From positions 31,220,298-31,284,297 of the forward strand of contig NC_089856.1 in assembly GCF_036373705.1 (NCBI RefSeq): a stretch of 64,000 bases of DNA. The letters run 5' to 3'. The position numbers were made by a program, and so were the translations under genes. The stretch comes from Amia ocellicauda. Its lineage: Eukaryota; Chordata; Actinopteri; Amiiformes; Amiidae. Every line of letters begins with the position of its first letter. Within the stretch, counting starts at the first letter, position 1. Of the stretch, positions 9,127-51,625 are shown in pieces. The notes under the pieces were generated by a model. The model was not told the origin of the DNA and ran no database searches. It was given only the letters and a program-made list of their open reading frames with translations.

Positions 9127-12100
9127 TTAGTCAGAGGAAGACTCAGCAGCCTGCCCAAGGTACTTCTTCACAGTTTTAGTATTGTCCTCTCTCATATCCT
9201 GGATGTGGGCATCAAGCTGCTGGAGCAGTTCCTCAGAACGCCGGTTTTCCTCCTCCAGGAAGCGAGTGGCAATAGAGCCCACTGGGGAGGCAGGGAGAGG
9301 GGCCTGGGTGGGGGGAAAAGCAGTGAAAGGGTTCAGAGAAGAGTTCAGCACATGGATTACTGAGATGCACATTTTTGATCGATGTGCGACTGGAAATGGT
9401 GCATAAGAAAATGCCTGTACAACTATAATACGGTCTATCGCCCAACCAGTTATAAAATCCTTGTAATGCAGATTGGAATAATAAAGATGGCAACTAAAAC
9501 ATGATTGGAAAAATAAATGAGACATAAAATACAGAGACAACTCACCAATGGCATAAACTCATCACGTCCAAGTGACCCCATAGACTCCACTGAGGCGGCG
9601 TCCGAGAGATTCCCCTCATTCCCATCGGGGGCTTTGCTCGGAAACGAATGATCTTCTGGGGCTCCTTTCGGTGACTGGGGGGATGAGGATGTTCCCGAGG
9701 TACTATCGCTGACCAGGGACTGTCCATCTGCTTGGCTGGGGGCACTTCTGAGATTTTGTTTTTCCAACTGGCTTTTGAGGTTCTCAATTTCCCTTTCGTA
9801 CTGCCAGGCGTTTTCCTCCATCTTGGTTTTCATGGCTTGGAGCTCTTGTGTGTGTTGCATCTGGATTTCCTGAATTTTCCTATAATATGAAAGCTGGCAA
9901 GTTACCATGGGACCACTGATTGTCCCAAGGATTGCAGCCCACATGCAAGAAGGATTAGCCAGTTGGCTTCACATACAATACATACATATAGAAGACATAG
10001 AATCCAAGAGAACAAATCTCACCATCACTGCTCATAGGGAGAACAAGTTCAAACCAGTTGTTCAGCACTAACTCATGGCATAAACAAGACCAGGCTTGAG
10101 CTCCTACACGTCCTATAGACCATAACCCTGGGTGTCCACCTCAAAGAGTATGACCCCCGAAAAATTAAATAAAAGGCAAAATGTATGAATTAATTAAGCT
10201 TTGCATTGATACTCTCAGTAATTCCTGAAAGCTCACGCTCAGATCTCCACACATGTCCGTGTACCTGTCGTCAGTAGTGCGGAGCTGAGTTAGTCTGCCC
10301 TGGGTCTGCAGTGCCCTCTCGTACTTGTCCTGCCAGGTCTGGGTGGAGGCCTCCAGTCTCGCGCGTACCTCAGCCAGGTCCTGTCGCAGCTGCTGGTTCT
10401 CCTGCTCCAGGCTACCCAGCGAGGACACGTAGCTCTCTCTCAGGGCCGACAGCGACCCCTCCGATTTCTGCGGCAGACACCGTAAACCATCCATTCCAGG
10501 AGTTAGTAAGCACAATTAAACTAAGCCGATCAGCATCAAACACGATGGTTCTGAAACATTGTACATGGAAAGCGATCAAATTAATGATAAATTGAGATGA
10601 CACAAGGGGAAACGATAAGGCCTTTATGATAGATACCTCATTATTATCGCTCCGATTAATAAAATCCAGGCAAATTATACTAAAATAACAAAACCCTCCT
10701 CTTTCGAAATACACACACAATGGGTGGAATATGAATACAAGCCATTTTATTTGTAGGAACAATCGATGCTTTTCAAACCTTGGTTGTTCTGGATTCCACA
10801 CGCTCCAGTATCTCAGTCAGATGCTGATTCTCGATCTTCAGGGTCTCGAGCTGAACCTGAGCAACCTGCAGACAAAACAGCAGCACATAACGTATCCATG
10901 TGATCCTTTAGCATGGCTCTTATTTTGCCAATTACTTTCTCACTTTGACAGTGTCTTGGGATTTTAATATACAACCCAGAGGATTTTCTATCCATTAAGG
11001 ATTAGAGTGAAAGATGATTTTGATACTAGGAGCACAGTTTGGTTTGGTTCCTACTTCACAACCTACGCCACACACTGTGCGCCATGCCCACCTTGAGTTC
11101 CGCTGCCCTGCGCTCTGCCCTCTCCACCTCAGAGCGCAACTGACGCTCAATGCTGGAGGCAGAACCGCTGAGAGTGGCTATGGTGATGTCTCTCTGGTGC
11201 AGCTCGCTGGTAAGCTGGGTCACCTCCCTCTTCATGCCTTCTACCGCCGCATTGTGCGACCCATCTGCCTGCTGCAGCTCGTCCCTCAACTGGGCAACAT
11301 GAAAAGGTTCAAATACAGTAATAGTTCAGTGATTTCAGCTATCTGATATTTCCCTTGCAGATGAGCTACGGTTACTTAACTGTAACAGACTAATTTAAGG
11401 CAGATGACAAATTTAAGGACTTCAGGACTGCGGGACACAAACTGGATTTAAGATACCTTTGAGCTTTCAAACACACAAGGCAAACTTGTCACAACATGCA
11501 GTTAAATGGACAGACCACAAAATGTTGAGAATCACTGCGGAAAAATGTGTGGCAGAATGTTGTGTGATTTCTAGACGAAGGGTGGCTAGACAGCTCTCTG
11601 AAAAATACACTGGTTTAGACACTAGCAATTAGACAGAAAAACAGAACAGCTACTTCTTACTTTCTTTACTTCCCCCAGGCAGCATCTGTGCTCCTCTTCA
11701 ATGTGTTGGAGCTCCTGCTGTTTTCTGGACAAATCTTTCTTTATGTCTTCTTTCTGTCCTTTCACTTTATCAATGCTGGAAAACAAGAATCTTTTAGTTA
11801 ATACATGGCTAACTTCACTCATTTTCACATTTGTTATAGTAGGATATATCTGATTTTTGTGAAGAATGGCAGAGTATGTGTCATTGCTCTGATCAGGTCT
11901 AATTAAATATGCCTGAGAGAACTCCATTGTCGTCTTGTGGACTTCCTACCTCTCTTCAAGCCGAGCCACTTCAGCCTTTAGGCGTGCATCACTTGAGCGG
12001 GCTGCATGGAGATGAATTAGCGTCTGTTCCAGCTCCTGCCTGAGGGGTCCCAGTCCTGCAAACACCCCCTTCTCCTGCAGACAGCCTTCTAGAGACCTGT

Positions 12101-15100
12101 GGAAAGCCAAACAAATAAAAAATATATATATTACGGTGTATAACTTTACTATTGTCGAGTTTTTGTAATAACTTACATTTCTTACCTAACAATGTGCTCT
12201 TTAGCCTGCAGGGCCTCTGACAGTCTGGCCACCTGAGCACGGAGTTGATGCTGCTGGAGCCCAACGCTGCGGACAAACTCATCCTGCGTGTGCAGAGTGG
12301 CCCGGAGTTCAGCTTTTTCCTCACTCAGCACCTGGATACACAGAACAGGGTTGCGACGTTCTTCAATTTATCAAAATATAGACAACTGCACACTTTGTGC
12401 TTCATAAAGCCATAACTCAATTCTTAAAACATGCAAGCACTTCCAATTAAAAGGTGCATCTGGTTATAACAACTGAAGACAGATGCTCAGCTCCATCAAC
12501 ACTGGGTCTAGAGCTTTCCTCTTTGCATAACATCAAATTGAGACTCAATTATAGTCAAAAGTAATTAAAATGAAATTAATGCATTACGAACTTATATATG
12601 ATACATATATTGTGGTGTAGTGTGCAGTTCAAGCCGTGTGCGTTTGGGGTCATGGCACTGGATTGCAGTCAATAGGGGTAGGTAGGGGCCAGGCAGTCTT
12701 GTTGTCAGTAGTTGGTCCATGTCGGTTTTCCAGGTTTTCTCATATGGTTCAAGGTTGGAATCCAGGTGGTCAGTCAGTTGACTTTTCATTCTCTCTCTCA
12801 TTCGTCTCGCTCGTAAACACTTCTATTGACCACCCACGTTTCCCTGGAGGTTCAGGTTTCGAGATGAGCTGCAGGTTTGTTCACCTGGCTTAGTTCGACA
12901 GATGATTGACATTGAGCGTCCCATGTGTGGCACGGTGTCACATTATATATTATCAACTCTTTCATCGTGTTTTCCCATCTCCCCTTCTCCCATCTCTAGC
13001 ACGGCTGGACCAAAGCCTACCGTGCTGACCTGCAGTTCCCGCTGGGAGTCCCCCAGCTCCCCCTGCAGCAGGCTGAAGCGCTCCAGCTCCAACTCCTGGG
13101 CATGCAGGGTATCCTGGGCCCTCTGCAACTGGCTCCGCAGACGCCGCACCTCAGCAAGGCCCACCAGCTCACTCTGCTCCTGCTGACGGCTGGAAGTCTG
13201 TGACAGGTGGGCAGCCGACTGCTGCGTAACAAAGAAATGGGCACAACACCCAGTAGGTTTATTTCTGCACTGCACCATGAATTAAGGGTAAGCTTCAGTG
13301 AATCATATATTTGGGTTACAGAAGCCCAGCACAGCTACCTGTTGGGTCTTAGCCCCCCTATTTATTGTCTTAAATGTCAAAGTAAAATTCACTACCCAGC
13401 CTTCAGCATGAAAGTTTCCTATGCAATTAAACACAACATAATGTTATCATGTTCTGACTGCTCTACAAAGTGGTACCTGTATGAGTTGATGCTGCTCTGC
13501 CAGTGCTTTCCTCTGGGCCTCTAGAGAGGCCACCTGCTTCTGGTACTGCACGCGCTGCTGCTCCCACTCAACAGACTTCTGACGGAACTCCTGACAGACG
13601 ACACGAGTCGGTCAGAAACTATCCTAAAGACATTGTTTAGTTGCCCCTGTACAAACTATTCAATCAAGCTATCATGATACACACTTTTTTTTTTGAGACC
13701 ACACCGTAATAACAGTAAAACTGAACTGAAATCTTCCCATTTTCAGGAGAAATCTGTACCAAGGGATAAACAGCAACTTGCTTCCCTGATATTTTCTTAA
13801 AACTGTCACAATTTACCTTGACAGGTGCACATAATGTCATCTGTAACCCTCATGTGCCAAGGAGTATATGATGGGGAAAAGCAGAGCGCTACATTACCTC
13901 TATCTTGCCGTTTAGTCGGCTCACTTCTGTCCTGTCTTCCTCTCGGCTCCTGGCTCCTTCCCTGGCTTCCTTAAGCTGCTTGCGCTGGAGTTTCTCATAG
14001 CTTCGCTTAAGCTTGGATAACTGTAGAAATGTCAATTTGTCAGTAGACACACTTATTAGCACAGACTCAGATACATTCAGTGCATGTTATTTTGTTTCAT
14101 TACTTTGACAGCATTTTATATTAATGATTTCCTCTGAGGCGTAATTTCTAAATGGGACTGTGTCTTCTACCACAGTGCTGCAGCACACAGATATTGGAGT
14201 TTTGCACTGATCCATATTTCTTTGTGAAGTGCTGCATTGAAGCGCTGCGGTCCACAGTCTTAAAACATGAGCCTGGAGGAGACTCACCTCTTCCCGTACT
14301 CGCTGAAGCTGTTCCTCATATTTGGACACCAGCTCTTGCTTCCCATTCAAGACCTCTTGTAGTTGCTGCCGTAGGATTCCCACCTGGTTAAGCAAGGAGA
14401 ACAATCATCAGATCAACTCAGACCACACTCCCCACCAAAATTCATCTTTGCACAAGACTGCAATTCTGTAAGGAGTGCTATGACAGCAATCTGACCATGC
14501 AAGGCTGGAGAATGTCAGTTATGCATTAACTCCTTTGAGGATGAGGGTGTAGTTTGTATGAATGTATGCTAAAACACAGATTAATGGGGCACTTCAGCTT
14601 CTGAACATATTAAAAGTATGGATGTGAGGAAACTTGAAAAGTGGCTTTTAAATCCCTGAAGAAGGGCACTGGAACACTCTCTCCAAAACAACTGGACAAG
14701 AGAGATGCCACTGTCCAGACAATACAAATATTTAGAATTTACCTAAACTAGATGAGATTTTCTGCCACTTATTGAACATCCATTTTCCAAACCACTACAT
14801 TTGAGCTTCCGTGTAGAATCTCAGTAAGCATGCAAAGCATTCCAACACACTGGCAACTTCCATGCTGGTTCACCTTCAACATTTCCTTTTCCACTACTAA
14901 CTTCACCATCTGAAAGGCAGTGCTTTGGAGATCTAACAAAGCAACAATGGCCTCTTTGATTTTAAATGTCTACCAGGAGTAAAAAGAGACTGTCAGTTTC
15001 CTTCCAAACAGCTTTTATAAATTGCAAATACAGGTGTTATCGAAAACAACCCAATAGAAACACTTCAGCAGGAGTCTCTGGAGTGCATCAGCATTAACGC

Positions 15101-16198
15101 TCGCCATTCTTAATGGCAAAAATAGGATTTCATCACTAACCTGTTTTCCATCTATCATCAACTGGCATTGTTTTGCACCATCTAGTATGCATATATTTTC
15201 AACATGTTTTTTTTTTTAAATCATATAATAATGTAGTCAACCGAGAGCTTCTATTTGGTCTGTTCCTTTCAGAATATAGCTCCAAATATCAATTCATCCA
15301 AGTAAAATATGTATGCGAGATAACCAGGGTTGCAGAGTCTTGCATTAATCACCAAGGAAAGTATTCTCCCATAGCCTTATTTATTGATTTATTGGCAGAA
15401 ACATTTCAACACATTACAAAAGTGTAGTAATACAACAAATACCAAATACAATGTAAAGCATTACTAAAGTGTAGTAGTAGCAGAATGCTCCTTAATACAT
15501 CACAATTGTAAACGACTGTCATGTTATTCTGACAGGTCAAATTTAAAAAGGTACAAGTCCCTCGAAAAGGTACCTCCTTGTGCTTCTGCTCCAGCAGGTC
15601 CCTGGCAGAGTGGAGCTCCCCCTCTTGGGTGTGTAGCCGCCCCTCCAGGGCCTGGGTCTGACTCTCCCACTGGGTCCTCTGGTGGGCCACCATGATGTCA
15701 ATCTGGCGCATCAGCTCCTGAAGCTCTGGCTCACATGATGTCAAAATGGAGCTGGGAAGGAAAGACACTGATAGTATTTATATTGTCCAGTTAGATGTTT
15801 TTTTTTTGTTGTTGTTGTTTTTTTTACGTACTAGGCCACCTAATTCATAGTTTGTCAATATGTGTTTAAACTCTTACCTGCTGTGATCAAACTAACTGAG
15901 AAAACTGATGCTCTAAGGCCCACTGGTGGTGAATGAAGATGTTTTCCTATCATGTAGCAGACTGGAACAATGTTGTACTATAGCAAGACAACTATCAAGA
16001 TGTGAATACATAAAATACTATGGAGATGAGTTTTTAAGCATCATTTTAGCTACTAAAGTAATCCAGAAGTACATAAATGTAACCTTTAATGTACAATTCA
16101 TTACATGTTATTAAGTTACATTATTCAATGTGCATTAAATAATAATTTAACTCCTACCTCCCAGGTTGATCCTGTAATGTCTCCAGAAAGGCATCCAT
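9127..16198 (-). CDS. cep63: cep63, centrosomal protein of 63 kDa (14 coding exons)
   Basis: Coding exons, in transcript order on the minus strand: 16198-16158, 15751-15574, 14383-14288, 14020-13898, 13590-13477, 13221-13030, 12331-12186, 12096-11950, 11775-11661, 11289-11092, 10865-10779, 10467-10265, 9879-9546, 9303-9127. All junctions are GT-AG and phases agree, giving 2,151 nt and 716 aa (human CEP63 is about 703). The start [10 protein letters not shown] leads directly into [18 protein letters not shown], a hallmark of the family's N-terminus. [15 protein letters not shown] marks the middle, and [13 protein letters not shown] the conserved C-terminal motif. The protein is almost wholly predicted coiled coil, with a Ser/Pro-rich segment in the 334-nt exon. 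The known family role is at the mother centriole with CEP152, in centriole duplication and mitotic entry. The gene lies head to head with lsm2, with three tRNA genes between. Confidence 0.95.
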
Positions 16199-21707: not shown

Positions 21708-21716
21708 TCACAATGC

Positions 21717-21749
<33 letters not shown>

Positions 21750-22838
21750 TCCACAACACAGCATACACTCACCTAAAGGATTATTAGGAACACCATACAA
21801 ATACTGTGTTTGACCCCCTTTCGCCTTCAGAACTGCCTTAATTCTACATGGCATTGATTCAACAAGGTGCTGAAAGCATTCTTTAGAAATGTTGGCCCAT
21901 ATTGATAGGATAGCATCTTGCAGTTGATGGAGATTTGTGGGATGCACATCCAGGGCACGAAGCTCCCGTTCCACCACATCCCAAAGATGCTCTATTGGGT
22001 TGAGATCTGGTGACTGTGGGGGCCAGTTTAGTACAGTGAACTCATTGTCATGTTCAAGAAACCAATTTGAAATGATTCGACCTTTGTGACATGGTGCATT
22101 ATCCTGCTGGAAGTAGCCATCAGAGGATGGGTACATGGTGGTCATAAAGGGATGGACATGGTCAGAAACAATGCTCAGGTAGGCCGTGGCATTTAAACGA
22201 TGCCCAGTTGGCACTAAGGGGCCTAAAGTGTGCCAAGAAAACATCCCCCACACCATTACACCACCACCACCAGCCTGCGCAGTGGTAACAAGGCATGATG
22301 GATCCATGTTCTCATTCTGTTTACGCCAAATTCTGACTCTACCATCTGAATGTCTCAACAGAAATCGAGACTCATCAGACCAGGCAACATTTTTCCAGTC
22401 TTCAACTGTCCAATTTTGGTGAGCTTGTGCAAATTGTAGCCTCTTTTTCCTATTTGTAGTGGAGATGAGTGGTACCCGGTGGGGTCTTCTGCTGTTGTAG
22501 CCCATCCGCCTCAAGGTTGTACGTGTTGTGGCTTCACAAATGCTTTGCTGCATACCTCGGTTGTAACGAGTGGTTATTTCAGTCAAAGTTGCTCTTCTAT
22601 CAGCTTGAATCAGTCGGCCCATCCTCCTCTGACCTCTAGCATCAACAAGGCATTTTCGCCCACAGGACTGCCGCATACTGGATGTTTTTCCCTTTTCACA
22701 CCATTCTTTGTAAACCCTAGAAATGGTTGTGCGTGAAAATCCCAGTAACTGAGCAGATTGTGAAATACTCAGACCGGCCCGTCTGGCACCAACAACCATG
22801 CCACGCTCAAAATTGCTTAAATCACCTTTCTTTCCCAT
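21708..22838 (-). CDS. Tc1/mariner transposase, DD36E type, stop codon lost
   Basis: A single open frame. The N-terminal paired-like DNA-binding region contains an HTH (LLGFSRTTISRVYKEW, about residues 31-46). The catalytic DDE domain has D155 (WSDESRF), D246 (FQQDNAPCH) and E283 (SPDLNPIEHLW). There are 36 residues between D246 and E283, not the usual 34 of Tc1, which matches the DD36E (Incomer-type) group. The core protein should end after GGQTQY at about residue 346. In the copy at 50405-51625 the next codon is TAG, but here it is TTG (21800-21798), so the frame runs through the terminal inverted repeat into flanking (TA)n, adding a YIYIYI tail. Otherwise no lesion is visible, so activity is conceivable. 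Confidence 0.92.
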
Positions 22839-25362: not shown

Positions 25363-26245
25363 GATCAGCAATAACATTATGACCACTGACAGGTGAAGTC
25401 AATAACACTGATAATATCGTTATCATGGCAACTGTCAGTGGGTGGGATATATTAGGCAGCAAGTGAACATTTTGTCCTCAAAGTTGATGTGTTAGAAGCA
25501 GGAAAAATGGGCAAGCGTAAGGATCTGAGCGACTTTGACAAGGGCCAAATTGTGATGGCTAGACGACTGGGTCAGAGCATCTCCAAAACTGCAGCTCTTG
25601 TGGGGTGTTCCTGGTCTGCAGTGGTCAGTACCTATCAAAAGTGGTCCAAGGAAGGAAAAGTGGTGAACCGGCGACAGGGTCATGGGCGGCCAAGGCTCAT
25701 TGATGCACGTGGGGAGCGAAGGCTGGCCTGTGTGGTCCGATCCAACAGACGAGCTACTGTAGCTCAAATTGCTGTTAAAGTTCATGCTGGTTCTGATAGA
25801 AAGGTGTCAGAACACACAGTGCATCGCAGTTTGTTGCGTATGGGGCTGCGTAGCTGCAGACCAGTCAGGGTGCCCATGCTGACCCCTGTCCACTGATGAA
25901 AGCGCCTACAATGGGCACGTGAGCATCAGAAACTGGACCACAGAGCAATGGAGGAAGGTGGCCTGGTCTGATGAATCACAAGTTCAAGGTGTTGACTTGG
26001 CCTCCAAATTCCCCAGATCTCAATCCAATCGAGCATCTGTGGAATGTGCTGGACAAACAAATCCGATCCATGGAGGCCCCACCTCGCAACTTCCAGGACT
26101 TAAAGGATCTGCTGCTAACGTCTTGGTGCCAGATACCACAGCACACCTTCAGAGGTCTAGTGGAGTCCATGCCTCGACGGGTCAGGGCTGTTTTGGGACC
26201 TTCACAATATTAGGCAGGTGGTCATAATGTTATGGCTGATTGGTG
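25361..26245 (+). mobile_element. Deletion-derived Tc1-like element (copy A)
   Basis: The ends are inverted repeats containing CATAACATTATGACCAC-type sequence (left CCGATCAGCAATAACATTAT; right GTCATAATGTTATGGCTGAT, then TGGTG and TA). About 885 bp. It keeps the 5' half and 3' end of a Tc1-like transposase gene, but the middle is deleted: the sequence passes from WSDES directly to VLTWPPNSPDLNPIEHLW. The second catalytic Asp is therefore missing. The copy at 29405-30296 has the same junction, so this is an amplified non-autonomous form. Confidence 0.92.
25507..25896 (+). pseudogene. N-terminal half of a Tc1-like transposase (copy A)
   Basis: An open frame of 129 aa starting [16 protein letters not shown] and including the HTH region [16 protein letters not shown] and a basic GRPR-type linker ([14 protein letters not shown]). 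It ends at TGA after VPMLTPVH, before the catalytic domain. The remaining C-terminal sequence is readable at 25971-26213 in a different frame (WPPNSPDLNPIEHLWN to VRAVLGPSQY). As a DNA-binding-only product it could in principle bind the repeats, but nothing shows that it is expressed. Confidence 0.8.
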
Positions 26246-28030: not shown

Positions 28031-29323
28031 TAGTGCATCCGGAAAGTATTCACAGCGTCAGTGCACAGCCATTTTCAGATCTCTCCAGAGATATTCAATC
28101 AGGTTCAAGTCTGGGCTCTGGCTGGGCCACTCAAGGACATTCACAGAGTTGTCCTGTAGCCACTCCTTTGTTATCTTGGCTGTGTGCCTAGGGTCGTTGT
28201 CCTGTTGGAAGATGAACCTTCGCCCCATTCGGAGGTCCAGAGCGCCCCGGAGCAGGTTTTCATCAAGGATGTCTCTGTACATTGCTGCATTCATCTTTCC
28301 CTCAATCCTGACTGGTCTCCCAGTCCCTGCCGCTGAAAAACATCCCCACAGCATGATGCTGCCACCACCATGCTTCACTGTAGGGATGGTATTGGCCAGG
28401 TGATGAGCGGTGCCTGGTTTCCTCCAGACATGACGCTTGCCATTCAGGCCAAAGAGTTCAATCTTTGTTTCATCAGACCAGAGAATTTTGTTTCTCATGA
28501 TCAGAGAGTCCTTCAGGTGCCTTTTGGCAGACTCCAGGCGGGCTGTCATGTGCCTTTTACTGAGGAGTGGCATCTGTCTGGCCACTTTACCATACAGGCC
28601 TGATTGGTGGAGTGCTGCAGAGATGGTTGTTCTTCTGGAAGGTTCTCCTCTCTCCACAGAGACACGCTGGAGCTCTGTCAGAGTGACCATCGGGTTCTTG
28701 GTCACCTCCCTGACTAAGGCCCTTCTCCCCCGATCGCTCAGTTTGGCCGGGCGGCCAGCTCTAGGAAGAGTCCTGGAGGTTCCAAACTTCTTCCATTTAC
28801 GGATGATGGAGGCCACTGTGCTCATTGGGACCTTCAATGCTGCAGAAGTTGTTCTGTACCTGTCCCCAGATCTGTGCCTTAATACAATCCTGTCTCGGAG
28901 GTCTCCAGACAATTCCTTGGACTTCATGGCTTGGTTTGTGCTCTGACATGCACTGTTAACTGTGGGACCTTATATAGACAGGTGTGTGCCTTTCCAAATC
29001 ATGTCCAATCAACTGAATTTACCACAGGTGGACTCCAATCAAGTTGTAGAAACATCAAGGATGATCAGTGGAAACAGGATGCACCTGAGCTCAATTTTGA
29101 GTGTCATGGCAAAGGCTGTGAATACTTATGTACATGTGCTTTTTTTGTTTTTTATTTTTAATACATTTGCAAAGATTTCAAACCAACTTCTTTCACGTTG
29201 TCATTATGGGGTATTTTTTGTAGAATTTTGAGGAAAATAATGAATGTAATCCATTTTGGAATAAGGCTGTAACATAAGAAAATGTGGAAAAAAGTGAAGC
29301 ACTGTGAATACTTTCCGGATGCA

Positions 29324-31615: not shown

Positions 31616-35781
<4,166 letters not shown>

Positions 35782-35792
35782 TTTGTCGAGAT

Positions 35793-38700
35793 CTATTCAT
35801 AAAAAACAAAAACAAAACAAAACACACACATTAGAATAGTTTGAATAATGCACTGTATTTCCAGAAGTTGTACAAGTTATTGTAAAGTAACTGGGTAGCC
35901 CATATATTATTTTCCTGTTGCATGACTTTAAAATCTCTATACAAGTTATTCTAAAATGGTTTCTGTATACAGTTTAATATTACACTTTCCCAGTGACATT
36001 AAGGACATTCTTAAACCAACCCAGTTGTTTAAAGTTGTCCATAAAAGAGTCAAACCATTTTAAATGGCAGCAATATTTTGTCTAGGCTAACTTAATTGCT
36101 GAATCCCTTAGCCTAACCTTTCAACTGCAATTGGAAAACATTTGAATTCCTAACTAATTCAATCCATCAACAGAATATCGATAATACTACTTAGTACCAA
36201 AGTTGTGACAAATCCTTTACCTATAATATTCATTTATTTTGTTCCAACTTAATGCAGAACACCCACTTTATTGCAGTTGCTATACAAGAACCTTGATAGG
36301 AATAGAAGGTATTTTAATTAAAATTGTTCCAACCTGTATTTGTATGCAGATAGTGCACACACGTATAAACGCCTACACTGCTTACAAAAAATATTTTGAA
36401 CAAATACACATCATATCGATTGCCTTAACAGACCATTATTTTAATGTAAATGTCCCGTTGCCATGGAAACGGTACCACAACTGTATATTCGAAATGAACG
36501 ATTCATCTGCTTTAATGTTAACACAAATAACATACTGGATGCATTGAATCATTGTTAGATTATACTATAGATCATCAATACATGATCACCAACAACACAC
36601 ATACACACTCCATAGTTTAGCCTGGTTGGTCTGCAGGGTAAATATGTTTTCACTGAAGTTACCATTGAAAAGTTTAAAGCACAGGCAAGATGGTCATCTT
36701 TACACATTAAAAGCATTTTGCTCCTATCGCAGACATTTCAAAGATCACTTAAAAGAAAACAGGTTTGAGGTTATAGTCATGTAAAACATCAACTTAACTG
36801 TAGGCTAGTCTGTACCTTATTCGAAGAAGCAGGACATTGTCTTAGAATCTTCTTTCCCCCTTTTGGTTTTGCAGTTTGGTATTAATAACACGACATACTT
36901 CATCTACACGTTGTTTCAAAGTAGATTTAACTAAGTAACGGGCAAGTGCCATTGCATTGTATATTTGCTGCAGAAGAGCAGGGAATGTAGCTGTGCACTC
37001 ATTCCGGGAATGCGGGCTGCAGCCGGGGCGGATTTTCACAGAATAAGTCTGGTATCTCTTCAGATCCAGAAGAACTGGGCTTCCTGGAAAGCCCTTCGAG
37101 GTCTACAGCAGAAGACTGGTTTATGCAGTTATTCTGTACGCACCACTTGCGTTGAAAGTTTAGGAAATGCCCCAACACACCCACATGGTTTTCTGATTTA
37201 AAAACGTCCGAGAAGGCGCCGTCTCCATTAAGAAAACGGTTACTGCAATTCTTCTTATATGGTTATTGTTGTTGGTGTTGTGTTTTAAGAACTTTTAGTG
37301 CATCTCTACACTTAAAAAGGCAAACATGTTATACACATAAGTGGGACTTTAAAGGTTAAATTCAGATGACAGACCCCGCATTGAAAGTGCATTTCACACC
37401 CACGTTTTTAAGAGCTTTTTTTTTTTTTTTTTTTTTTCCGATGCTTTATTTCAGCTAAACGAAAATGAGTGTAGCCTCTATGGCTGTAATCTGATAAAGG
37501 AAATTTCCAGTAAACTTTTTATCCGAGTTCAAAACATCTATAGCCCGTATTCTTGAAAAAAAAAAAAAAGGTCGTTTTCTTAATGTTCAGTGTATTGGAG
37601 GAAAGGGCGCACACGCCTGCAGACGGCGCAGTCTGATCAGCTGTGAATTGTGGACAGGTTACATTTCTGAGAATCAGACCTTTTTCAGCCCTCCAAAAAA
37701 CAATATTCCGTTTCTACAGATCTACGATGCATGTTTCAGAGAAATGCGTCCCTTTTTTCTTATTTTTTTTTTAAACATTTTCCGGATGCAAATTAGAGCC
37801 GTAGTTTAGAGGCTGCTTGCAATAAAACGCATGCCAAGAATACAGCAAGAATTCCTGGAAGCACCACAGTAAGCGCCCAACACATCAGAAATCATTTGCT
37901 GAATGGGATTGTGAGGCTTTTGGTTGTGCCGTCAGCGTTTATTAGTCTACAAAAGTTATAATTAAATGTAATCTGAGAATATGTGTGTGAAGGAGTTTGA
38001 CAGTTTGTTGTTGTTGTTTTGTTTGTTTAATGACTCATACTAATAGAGCATGTATAATATAATCTATGGGATTATAAAACACCGACTGACAATATCTTCA
38101 CTTGGTGTGTGTGTGTGTGTGTGTGTGTATACACATGTATAGCATGCATATGATATTAAACCGACTTCCCCACATAGTCTCAGTGCACTGCAGACCTACA
38201 CTAATGCCACAGGGTGGTTTCCTGCTCCACCATAAAAAAGCAAAAGTCACCTTTTTAACCTGTGACATTTAAGCGTCCCACAAGGACCTTCCCCACCCCC
38301 ATTAAATACATGCGTGTATTGATACGGATGTATTTATGTCGTATATTTTGTATTATTTAAATCACTGAAACAACCCGAAATAAAGAGAACTGCATGCAAT
38401 AAAGTCACATCTTCCGACCTAGAATTATAATTTAGCCACTAGATGTCACAGCAGTACACTTTTTTTTCCCCTCACTAAATTGGAGGAGCATTTTTAACTT
38501 GACAGGCAAACAGGCTGTAGTTAATACATTCACAAGTAATTAAGGTACTTGGAGAACCAAACTTTTTCAGAGAAAATACGGAAAGGACATTATATGACAG
38601 GTTTATTGACAGGCAAATGAAGCACAAGTAAAATACTGACAACAAAATAACCTGCCAATTGAACAGATTGTATATAATTTACGTTTATAGTTGGTCTTTG

Positions 38701-40664: not shown

Positions 40665-40704
<40 letters not shown>

Positions 40705-40903
40705 TGTCAAGAGTGCTGTCAGTAGCCAAGCCACACAAGATCAACACTGCGCACAAAATAAACTGCCCCAAACACCTTGAAATCACCTACAACCCTTGTT
40801 AAAAAACACATTCACACACACGGCTGTGTTTGAGCTAAGCCACCTGCAAAGAAAAGTACAACTTCGCGCCAAAGTATTGGCAAAAAAGAATTAAAAAAAT
40901 CAC
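35793..40903 (-). other. bcl6 intron 1 (presumed)
   Basis: An acceptor (ATGAATAG, at 35800-35793) lies 11 nt before the bcl6 ATG, and the proposed first-exon donor is at 40903. Between them there is no coding gene. Features include (GT)n at about 38104-38129 and a T26 tract near 37412-37438. An additional untranslated exon may be hidden here, as human BCL6 has more than one. Confidence 0.5.
40667..40702. repeat. (GA)n microsatellite
   Basis: About 18 GA units within the CpG-rich bcl6 upstream region. Confidence 0.95.
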
Positions 40904-40990
40904 CTGGTAGGGCTTTCCTAGAAACTTCTTGCATCACCACTTCTAAGAACCCCAGTTCTAAGAATCAGAGGAGCTCAATTCTCGGAATTT
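40904..40990 (-). other. bcl6: Untranslated first exon of bcl6, 3' part
   Basis: On the minus strand, CTTTCTAGGAAAGCC... from the site cluster runs to GCCCTACCAG followed by GTGATT, a good donor (exon end 40904). From memory, human BCL6 exon 1 ends in a very similar arrangement, with GTTTCTAGGAAAG a short distance before a CCAG donor. The 5' limit is unknown. The donor and motif are visible; homology to the human exon needs an alignment. Confidence 0.55.
40915..40987. promoter_or_regulatory. Cluster of four TTCYNRGAA sites (BCL6/STAT) in bcl6 exon 1
   Basis: Four imperfect palindromes on the plus strand: TTCCTAGAA (40915-40923), TTCTAAGAA (40941-40949 and 40956-40964) and TTCTCGGAA (40979-40987). 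All fit the STAT consensus TTCYNRGAA. The first is also an exact BCL6 core site (TTCCTAGAA). In mammals BCL6 represses itself through sites in exon 1, and STAT factors act in the same area, so this is a likely conserved autoregulatory module. Confidence 0.65.
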
Positions 40991-42879
40991 GAGCTTTGGG
41001 CCGTACCACTGGCATCGGGCAGGGGAGGATTAGGTTTTTGTCAGGGTCGTCTTAACAGCATTTCAGGAGAACGATTTTAGCGGCACATATACGACTTGAA
41101 TTATCACAGAGAAAGAGATGGAAATCGAAATGAAGCTGATTGTTCTTATGGACGTATTTGGGGGGAAAGGACAGAAAAATAGCGCCCCGTGCCGCGCAGG
41201 TCCCCCTCTACGGTGGCTCGCTCCGAACACAGACGGTCACGTGCGCAGACGAGCAGTCGACGTCGCGCGTGGCTCTGGGCCGGCCTCGCAGTTCTCAGAA
41301 CTAATTTGCTATTCCATGACATAAGCGCGGGCTGCTGCTGCCTGTGCGTGTACTAAACCCACAGCCGTAACATACACACAACACAGGAGGGGTGCTTATA
41401 CACAGGGATGCATGTCCCTTATTGTTCTCTCAATTACTGTTTTTTTGTTTTGTTGTTGAGGTAGCTTTTTCCCTTTTTTTTTTTTGTTTTGTTTGGTTTT
41501 CCGGTCGAGATCTTTTTGCAAATGCTATTTTGTTTTTCTCTCATTGGCATTGGATTGAAGGCCCATCATCCTGCGAGGGTTTCGTTGGAACTGGGAATTG
41601 TTTATGATCGCATGACACTGTGCTTGAAAACTGTTTTTTTTTTTTTTTTTTTGTCAGCTTGGAGGCTACGTTGGTATTTCGTTTATTTTTGCCATTAGAC
41701 CAATGCAATGCATTGCATTTGAATGTAAATATGTGCATGCCATTGGTGATTGCTGTTGGTACTGGTGGCATGCTGTGAGATGTTTAATGGATATAATCGG
41801 TGATTAGTTTTAAAGGATCGTATGCTGCTTTCCTGCAATATGGTTTGCAAACTATAAAACAGCATTTCACTATGTAATTAAAGAACTACTTAAACTTAGT
41901 CAATGCTTAGTGATTCTTTACAGCAATCCATAGACACTAAAGCTAGGGGTGGGCGGAGGTACCGGCTGCTTGCTTACACTGTAATGACAAATAACAACAT
42001 GCAAAGGTACTGTATCTACTGCATAGTTTGATGTTACAAACCAGGGGGTATAGATTGGAGGATTGAGATACAATATACATGTTTCTATTTGTCAGCATTT
42101 GAATTGCCTATAATCAGCTGGAATAACTAATAATATTTTGGACAATAAGGCAACGTCTTCGAATCGATGCCCGAATCTAGTACAGCTTTTCACTTGAGAA
42201 ATGCGTTTCTGTGTCAGCAGAAAAGTATCCATTCAGATCCGAATGTCTGTTGGAGGTTGTAGATCCAAGGCGGTAATGCAGAATACAAAAACATATATAT
42301 TTCAAAAGTTGATGTGAAATGAGAGTAGACTACGTTGATGAGAGTGATATACAGATATATTGTTACAAAACGCTAAGTCCTTCTTGGCCCTGGCGTTATA
42401 AAGTGACAAACGCTATCCAGGGTGATCAGTAACACCTTCAAGACCAAGGACCTTATATGAGTTTGAAACAGTGCTGATCACAAGTCTGTATAGTGTGACA
42501 GTGTTGCTGCAATTGTACAATTACAATCCTTACCAGTGTCTTCTAAGTGTATAACACATCCTGCCCCAGTTCATAAGTATAGGGCGCTCCTCACTAAATC
42601 CTAAAGTTAGAGGATGACATACAAGTTCAACATCTTAAATGCGTAAAAGCGCGTCAATTACAGGATTTACACTAGGCATTTGCAGACTATCTTCTACGCA
42701 TTTTAATATAATGTTAATGAAGAGGTAGTGTGATGACACTGGACCAAACATATTTTGGGCTACATGGTTTCCATTGTAGCCTAAACTTGTTTCTGAACAG
42801 TTCCTTGCGTACTTTGGTAACGTTCATAATAAAACATGGGTGGGAATTACTGTTGTGCCTGATATTAAAGAACAATGCG

Positions 42880-50407: not shown

Positions 50408-51625
50408 TCACCTAAAGGATTATTAGGAACACCATACTAATACTGTGTTTGACCCCCTTTCGCCTTCAGAACTGCCTTAATTCTACGTGGCATTGATTCA
50501 ACAAGGTGCTGAAAGCATTCTTTAGAAATGTTGGCCCATATTGATAGGATAGCATCTTGCAGTTGATGGAGATTTGTGGGATGCACATCCAGGGCACGAA
50601 GCTCCCGTTCCACCACATCCCAAAAATGCTCTATTGGGTTGAGATCTGGTGACTGTGGGGGCCAGTTTAGTACAGTGAACTCATTGTCATGTTCAAGAAA
50701 CCAATTTGAAATGATTCGACCTTTGTGACATGGTGCATTATCCTGCTAGAAGTAGCCATCAGAGGATGGGTACATGGTGGTCATAAAGGGATGGACATGG
50801 TCAGAAACAATGCTCAGGTAGGCCATGGCATTTAAACGATTCCCAATTGCCACTAAGGGGCCTAAAGTGTGCCAAGAAAACATCCCCCACACCATTACAC
50901 CACCACCAGCAGCCTGCACAGTGGTAACAAGGCATGATGGATCCATGTTCTCATTCTGTTTATGCCAAATTCTGACTCTACCATCTGAATGTCTCAACAG
51001 AAATCGAGACTCATCAGACCAGGCAACATTTTTCCAGTCTTCAACTGTCCAATTTTGGTGAGCTTGTGCAAATTGTAGCCTCTTTTTCCTATTTGTAGTG
51101 GAGATGAGTGGTACCCGGTGGGGTCTTCTGCTGTTGTAGCCCATCCGCCTCAAGGTTGTACGTGTTGTGGCTTCACAAATGCTTTGCTGCATACCTCGGT
51201 TGTAACGAGTGGTTATTTCAGTCAAAGTTGCTCTTCTATCAGCTTGAATCAGTCGGCCCATTCTCCTCTGACCTCTAGCATCAACAAGGCATTTTCGCCC
51301 ACAGGACTGCCGCATACTGGATGTTTTTCCCTTTTCACACCATTCTTTGTAAACCCTAGAAATGGTTGTGCGTGAAAATCCCAGTAACTGAGCAGATTGT
51401 GAAATACTCAGACCGGCCCGTCTGGCACCAACAACCATGCCACGCTCAAAATTGCTTAAATCACCTTTCTTTCCCATTCAGACATTCAGTTTGGAGTTCA
51501 GGAGATTGTATTGACCAGGACCACACCCCTAAATGCATTGAAGCAACTGCCATGTGATTTGTCGGTTAGATAATTGCATTAATGAGAAACTGAACAGGTG
51601 TTCCTAATAATCCTTTAGGTGAGTG
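50405..51625 (-). mobile_element. Tc1-like DD36E transposon, full length (copy 2)
   Basis: 1,221 bp, exactly the length of the copy at 21766-22986, with the same ends and TA flanks (50403-50404 and 51626-51627). It is inserted next to a (TA)n run. Only scattered substitutions separate the two copies and there is no net indel, which points to recent transposition. Confidence 0.95.
50437..51477 (-). pseudogene. DD36E Tc1-like transposase with premature amber stop
   Basis: Same start (MGKKGDLSNFERGMVV) and HTH as copy 1. The frame is open for 243 codons, then codon 244 is TAG (50748-50746) where copy 1 has CAG, in the GYFQQDN motif just before the second catalytic Asp. The rest stays in frame to the native stop (TAG, 50439-50437) after QTQY. 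One substitution thus separates it from an open frame. Some residues also differ from copy 1, for example AIGNRLNAM against PTGHRLNAT. Confidence 0.9.

Follow-up and report, generated by a model that had tools for sequence, protein, structure and literature searches.

The exon-1 switch of BCL6 is one of the regulatory elements that suffer damage in human B-cell lymphoma; does a fish bcl6 gene carry this switch, and how far back does it go? In mammals, BCL6 exon 1 is described as the BCL6 autoregulation site, and the BCL6 protein acts on sites in this exon to repress its own gene (PMC7288929). The region of the human promoter and first untranslated exon is described with the STAT sites alpha, beta/gamma, and delta, that is, four sites, two of which are written as a pair (PMC3759668). 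STAT5 represses the gene and displaces STAT3 (PMC6087715), and the binding of STAT6 and STAT3 together with feedback has been described in germinal-centre B cells (PMC3651038). The stretch of DNA analysed here, termed the window, comprises 64,000 nucleotides of Amia ocellicauda (NCBI RefSeq assembly GCF_036373705.1, contig NC_089856.1, positions 31,220,298 to 31,284,297 of the forward strand). The original prediction placed a cluster of STAT/BCL6 palindromes in the presumed first exon of bcl6 in this window, and its premise, exon-1 self-repression and STAT input in mammals, matches the descriptions given in PMC7288929 and PMC3759668.

Judged by its BTB domain, middle region, zinc fingers, and LPP-like neighbour, the minus-strand gene in the window is bcl6 (BCL6A). 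The ATG exon, which encodes the first part of the BTB domain, lies at 35617..35792 (minus strand) with the ATG at 35781, and the acceptor ATGAATAG immediately precedes position 35792. Minus-strand open frames containing the second BTB exon (35174..35443) and the large middle exon (34060..35100) follow, the latter matching human BCL6 (6xmx). The zinc-finger exons at 31616..33549 (minus strand) matched the human BCL6 zinc-finger chain 2lce with an E value of 1.1e-39, 2lce being one of 45 PDB sequences that matched these exons at E ≤ 1e-20. When the BTB and middle parts were joined, the best PDB match was human BCL6 6xmx (E 1.8e-107). Identity to human BCL6 was about 80% in the BTB domain (100/125) and 46% in the middle region (101/219); the values given for zebrafish bcl6aa are 77% and 35%, respectively (PMC9650189). 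Zyxin-family LIM exons were found on the plus strand at C7:31485268-31488077, head-to-head with bcl6 and 224 kb upstream of it. These exons were 66, 78, and 59% identical to a TRIP6-like query, and the gene is LPP-like and presumably LPP; BCL6A-LPP synteny is described in human, mouse, and zebrafish (PMC9650189). Elsewhere in the window, CEP63 exons lie downstream of bcl6 at 9127-15768 on the minus strand, and Tc1-like transposase open frames were observed at 21708-22838, 25489-25896, 28058-28927, and 50746-51477, one of which encodes an HTH domain of the Sleeping Beauty type.

Four 9-mers fitting TTCYNRGAA had been claimed within 73 bp just inside a splice donor about 5 kb upstream of the ATG, and both the sites and the donor were confirmed. 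The 9-mers start at 40915, 40941, 40956, and 40979 and span 40915-40987. In gene order, all on the minus strand, they are TTCCGAGAA at 40979..40987 (plus strand TTCTCGGAA), TTCTTAGAA at 40956..40964 and again at 40941..40949 (plus strand TTCTAAGAA in both cases), and TTCTAGGAA at 40915..40923 (plus strand TTCCTAGAA). The centre-to-centre distances are 23 bp between the first and second palindromes, 15 bp between the second and third (a 6-bp gap), and 26 bp between the third and fourth. We take TTCCTAGAA to be an exact, high-affinity BCL6 core site, the only such site among the four. The palindromes end 11 nt before the donor of the presumed non-coding exon 1 (40902..40904, minus strand; last exon base 40904, GT at 40903-40902), where the exon end following the block reads CCCTACCAG/GTGATTT with the donor CAG/GTGATT. 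The ATG is 5.1 kb downstream of the block, and the intron from 40904 to 35792, if direct, is also 5.1 kb long. A (GA)n run occupies 40668-40702 in the presumed intron 1, some 0.2 kb past the donor.

The clustering of the four palindromes is not due to chance, because in 400 dinucleotide-preserving shuffles of the whole window the maximum number of TTCYNRGAA sites per 73 bp was two, which was reached in 16 shuffles. Shuffling the surrounding 1 kb 2000 times never gave more than one. The exact arrangement TTCTTAGAA-N6-TTCTTAGAA occurs at a single place in the 988-Mb genome, namely the bcl6 block, and allowing one mismatch added six further places genome-wide (eight rows, two places being found on both strands). 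A search with the 111-bp bcl6 exon end gave one BLAST-level match, which was the query itself. The repeat search reported zero repeats in the block at the settings used, and a bacterial-type promoter/terminator scan of it yielded nothing useful. A loose two-site pattern gave 81 stretches in a collection of viral contigs, which were judged to be chance matches, and a tighter site pattern gave 0 matches in the collection of genome contigs.

Further sites were observed around the block. A fifth palindrome, TTCTGAGAA, lies about 0.3 kb further upstream (41292..41300, minus strand); it is a possible counterpart of the epsilon GAS site that human BCL6 has upstream of exon 1 (PMC3759668). In the presumed intron 1, eight TTCNNNGAA sites occur in the 1212 bp at 36649..37860 (no strand assigned), a number reached by 0/500 shuffles (highest 6), and a second region responsive to STATs may lie here.

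Homology to mammalian BCL6 exon 1 was investigated using 12 oligonucleotides printed in papers for human or mouse BCL6, which were scanned ungapped on both strands. MAFFT misplaced the short oligonucleotides; ungapped scans and pairwise alignment were relied on instead. Five forward exon-1 oligonucleotides had their best match at the bcl6 block, with identities of 22/25, 21/21, 18/18, 22/22, and 16/20. The second palindrome lies within the human primer GAGCTCTGTTGATTCTTAGAACTGG (22/25; PMC7762542), the third within both a human primer (21/21; PMC7288929) and a mouse primer (22/22; PMC4667269), and the fourth within the mouse primer AGTTTCTAGGAAAGGCCGGA (16/20; PMC8770984). The 18/18 match was that of the BCL6 ChIP primer for the exon-1 autoregulation site (PMC7288929). 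Further mouse letters came from GGGTTCTTAGAAGTGGTGATGC, from a reverse primer (complement starting with CAGGTGATTATTG; both PMC4667269), and from AAAGGCCGGACACCAGTTTT (PMC7288929). A 46-nt composite of three overlapping primers was identical at 43/46 positions to 40976-40931, the next best place in the window giving 25/46. The mammalian letters compared cover the second to fourth palindromes apart from a 4-nt interval separating tiles two and three, and do not reach the first one, TTCCGAGAA. Amia and mouse agree over 14 nt at the TTCTAGGAA site with its flank, AGTTTCTAGGAAAG. Across the mouse exon-1 end and donor, 30/35 aligned bases were identical with one 3-nt and one 1-nt gap, and CAGGTGATT at the donor is common to Amia and the mouse exon 1/intron 1 primer (PMC4667269). 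Thus the proposal that the block aligns to BCL6 exon 1 of other vertebrates held, as far as the letters of human and mouse oligonucleotides are concerned.

Outside exon 1, one coding primer also had its best match in bcl6 (15/20). For 6 of the 12 oligonucleotides, i.e., two from exon 2, one from the human intron, one from the mouse intron side, one from the mouse exon junction, and one coding, the best match in the window was outside bcl6. An ungapped search for human exon 2 gave 14/19, 14/20, and 16/23 (the last with a 23-nt tile) as its best matches, none of them near the expected place. The oligonucleotide scan of the window thus yielded no short exon 2 like that of the human gene, since none of the oligonucleotides for exon 2, intron 1, or the exon junction had its best match in bcl6.

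These comparisons also bear on the alternative that the sites cluster by chance in a stretch that is not exonic and has no relation to BCL6 exon 1. The window-wide count of 12 TTCYNRGAA sites would suit it, being only mildly high (shuffle mean 5.8, sd 2.66; at least 12 in 6/100 shuffles), but such clustering was seen in none of the 400 window shuffles and the 43/46 identity with mammalian letters refutes this explanation at the level of homology; we regard its probability as negligible. We consider it nearly certain, on sequence comparison, that the bcl6 block is homologous to mammalian BCL6 exon 1. The two share the orthologous gene and the close TTCTTAGAA pair, their letters are nearly alike over the compared 46 nt and at the donor, and the Amia block would likewise lie at the end of a non-coding exon 1. 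They belong to different lineages, and the Amia exon end is 3 nt shorter than that of mouse.

The block would most plausibly be a regulatory module at the 3' end of bcl6 non-coding exon 1 that works as a Bcl6 feedback/STAT input, and we hold this reading with considerable confidence. A different explanation for the conserved letters is that the exon end serves at the RNA level or in splicing, for example through 5'UTR structure or exonic splicing enhancers, with the palindromes being incidental. The location of the block in the last ~90 nt of the presumed exon, adjoining the donor, fits such a function. However, the predicted RNA folding of the exon end was ordinary (z -0.88; 29/200 shuffles folded equally well), and RNA structure as the cause of conservation was therefore rejected. 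Four palindromes in 73 bp, where 400 shuffles gave two at most, and the DNA binding mapped here in mammals (PMC3759668, PMC7288929) also argue against it, and we consider an RNA or splicing function very improbable. The unremarkable folding suggests that the constraint acts at the DNA level.

Spacing provides a further indication of the factors that may use the block. For STAT5 tetramer sites, centre distances have been reported to peak near 15, 20, and 26, and a tetramer model gives near-zero feasibility near 13, 18, 23, and 29 (PMC4990345). Compared with these values, the distances of 15 and 26 in the bcl6 block fall on the staggered-tetramer peaks and the distance of 23 falls at near-zero feasibility; hence two of the three distances (26, 15, and 23) fit STAT5 tetramers and one does not. 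A further alternative is that the block was kept mainly as a STAT response element and that only mammals added self-repression by Bcl6 through it. All four sites conform to the general GAS form, and a single one is the presumed high-affinity BCL6 core. The two tetramer-compatible spacings point in the same direction, as does the published statement on fish, which in the passage concerned names STAT5 only (PMC11507070). On the other hand, the TTCTAGGAA site and its flank are unchanged relative to mouse, and it is to this exon-1 region that BCL6 autoregulation has been mapped in human (PMC7288929). We therefore judge a mainly STAT-directed block to be rather unlikely, with a probability well above that of an RNA function.

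The preferred reading, a DNA-level Bcl6/STAT element, is based on the mammalian data, the tetramer spacings, and the ordinary RNA folding. Under this reading, the module would have been inherited from the common ancestor with mammals, and the presumed exon 1 would be transcribed and spliced from the donor at 40904. Bcl6 protein would most likely bind the palindromes, the TTCTAGGAA site first, and repress its own transcription, as it does in mammals. Activated STATs would use the same 9-mers as Bcl6: STAT5 would presumably repress the gene, probably by binding as a tetramer to the two TTCTTAGAA sites that are 6 bp apart, and STAT3 or STAT6 would presumably activate it or displace STAT5.

The age of the module was further considered using the BCL6 family in the same genome. 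One clear BCL6-family paralog was identified at C20:3799122-3798478 on the minus strand, with its BTB domain split at the matching place. BTB identity was 49.6% between bcl6 and the paralog and 51.7% between human BCL6 and the paralog. Since the former value is far below the 80.5% obtained in this comparison between bcl6 and human BCL6, the duplication within the family probably predates the split of fish and human lineages. By its likeness, the paralog is probably bcl6b. It may instead be bcl6ab. In zebrafish, bcl6b is described next to different genes, and a bcl6ab specific to fish is known (PMC9650189). In the paralog, a strong acceptor precedes the ATG exon, whose first 10 nt lie ahead of the ATG; therefore, this gene should also have an upstream non-coding exon.

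A similar block was found about 11 kb upstream of the paralog, on the same (minus) strand, in CpG-rich sequence at about 3810319-3810391 of contig C20. It consists of TTCTCAGAA, TTCTTGGAA, a decayed TTCCGAGCG, and TTCCAGGAA in this order, followed by the donor-like ...TTAATTAAAG/GTATCTG. Hence three sites are intact and one is decayed, and the centre distances are 24-15-25, compared with 23-15-26 in bcl6. In an unbiased, oriented scan of 30 kb (C20:3790001-3820000) using the bcl6 spacing ±1, this block scored 30/32, and the opposite orientation reached 24. Shuffle maxima were 26 (1000 shuffles of the 30 kb) and 27 (5000 shuffles of the local kilobase). With ±2, the best background score was 25 in a small set of 149,830 bases made up of 22 other genome stretches and the window minus the module. 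The decayed site occupies the expected slot; when the intervening bases were put in random order, this happened in 112/20,000 trials. A genome-wide search for the site pair with the 15-bp gap gave 15 places, among them the paralog block itself and seven that resemble one repeat. With ±2 tolerance, 2/200 random spacing triples also scored 30 in the paralog region, because three perfect sites are present there.

The letters between the sites were compared as well. When the bcl6 exon end was aligned locally, and in an unbiased manner, to the 21 kb upstream of the paralog, the best score of 31 was not significant (100 shuffled queries: mean 30.3, highest 44). Global alignment to the paralog block beat 499/500 and 500/500 shuffles, the block having been chosen beforehand for its sites. 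The similarity of between-site letters in the bcl6 and paralog blocks was not significant and gives no independent support.

A TRIP6-like LIM gene lies at about 3814000-3818000 of contig C20 on the plus strand, head-to-head with the paralog, which mirrors the arrangement of bcl6 and the LPP-like gene on contig C7. As this gene starts on the other side of the paralog block, the block could be the promoter of the adjacent TRIP6-like gene. The two head-to-head pairs also suggest that the whole interval was co-duplicated. On balance, we lean slightly towards the view that the four-site module arose before BCL6 and BCL6B were duplicated. The ancestral gene would have faced a zyxin-family LIM gene head-to-head and would have had the module in its first exon, and both daughters would have kept it. 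If this is true, both genes may be cross-regulated by BCL6, BCL6B, and STAT proteins via a common grammar.

A part of these findings has a precedent. Zebrafish bcl6 is stated to have almost identical tandem STAT5 sites in a 2024 review, and thus the central idea of the original prediction, that fish have conserved this relation, has been published before (PMC11507070). Both are fish bcl6 genes with tandem STAT5-type sites, in zebrafish described as promoter tandem STAT5 tetramer sites; the zebrafish sites are compared here by description, the passage being given without sequence, coordinates, or citation. That passage is silent on four sites, on the exon position, and on BCL6 self-binding in fish. 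The Amia locus extends this to another lineage and adds the layout of four sites, their position in the exon, and the donor, and the similar block upstream of a BCL6-family paralog is possibly new.

A nearly unchanged exon-1 switch in a fish bcl6 gene would mean that feedback and STAT input have been strongly constrained since the lineages parted, and this constraint would hold with or without germinal centres. If the spacing at the paralog was inherited, the circuit would be older than the BCL6/BCL6B split, and cross-regulation between BCL6 and BCL6B would be testable in both fish and mammals.
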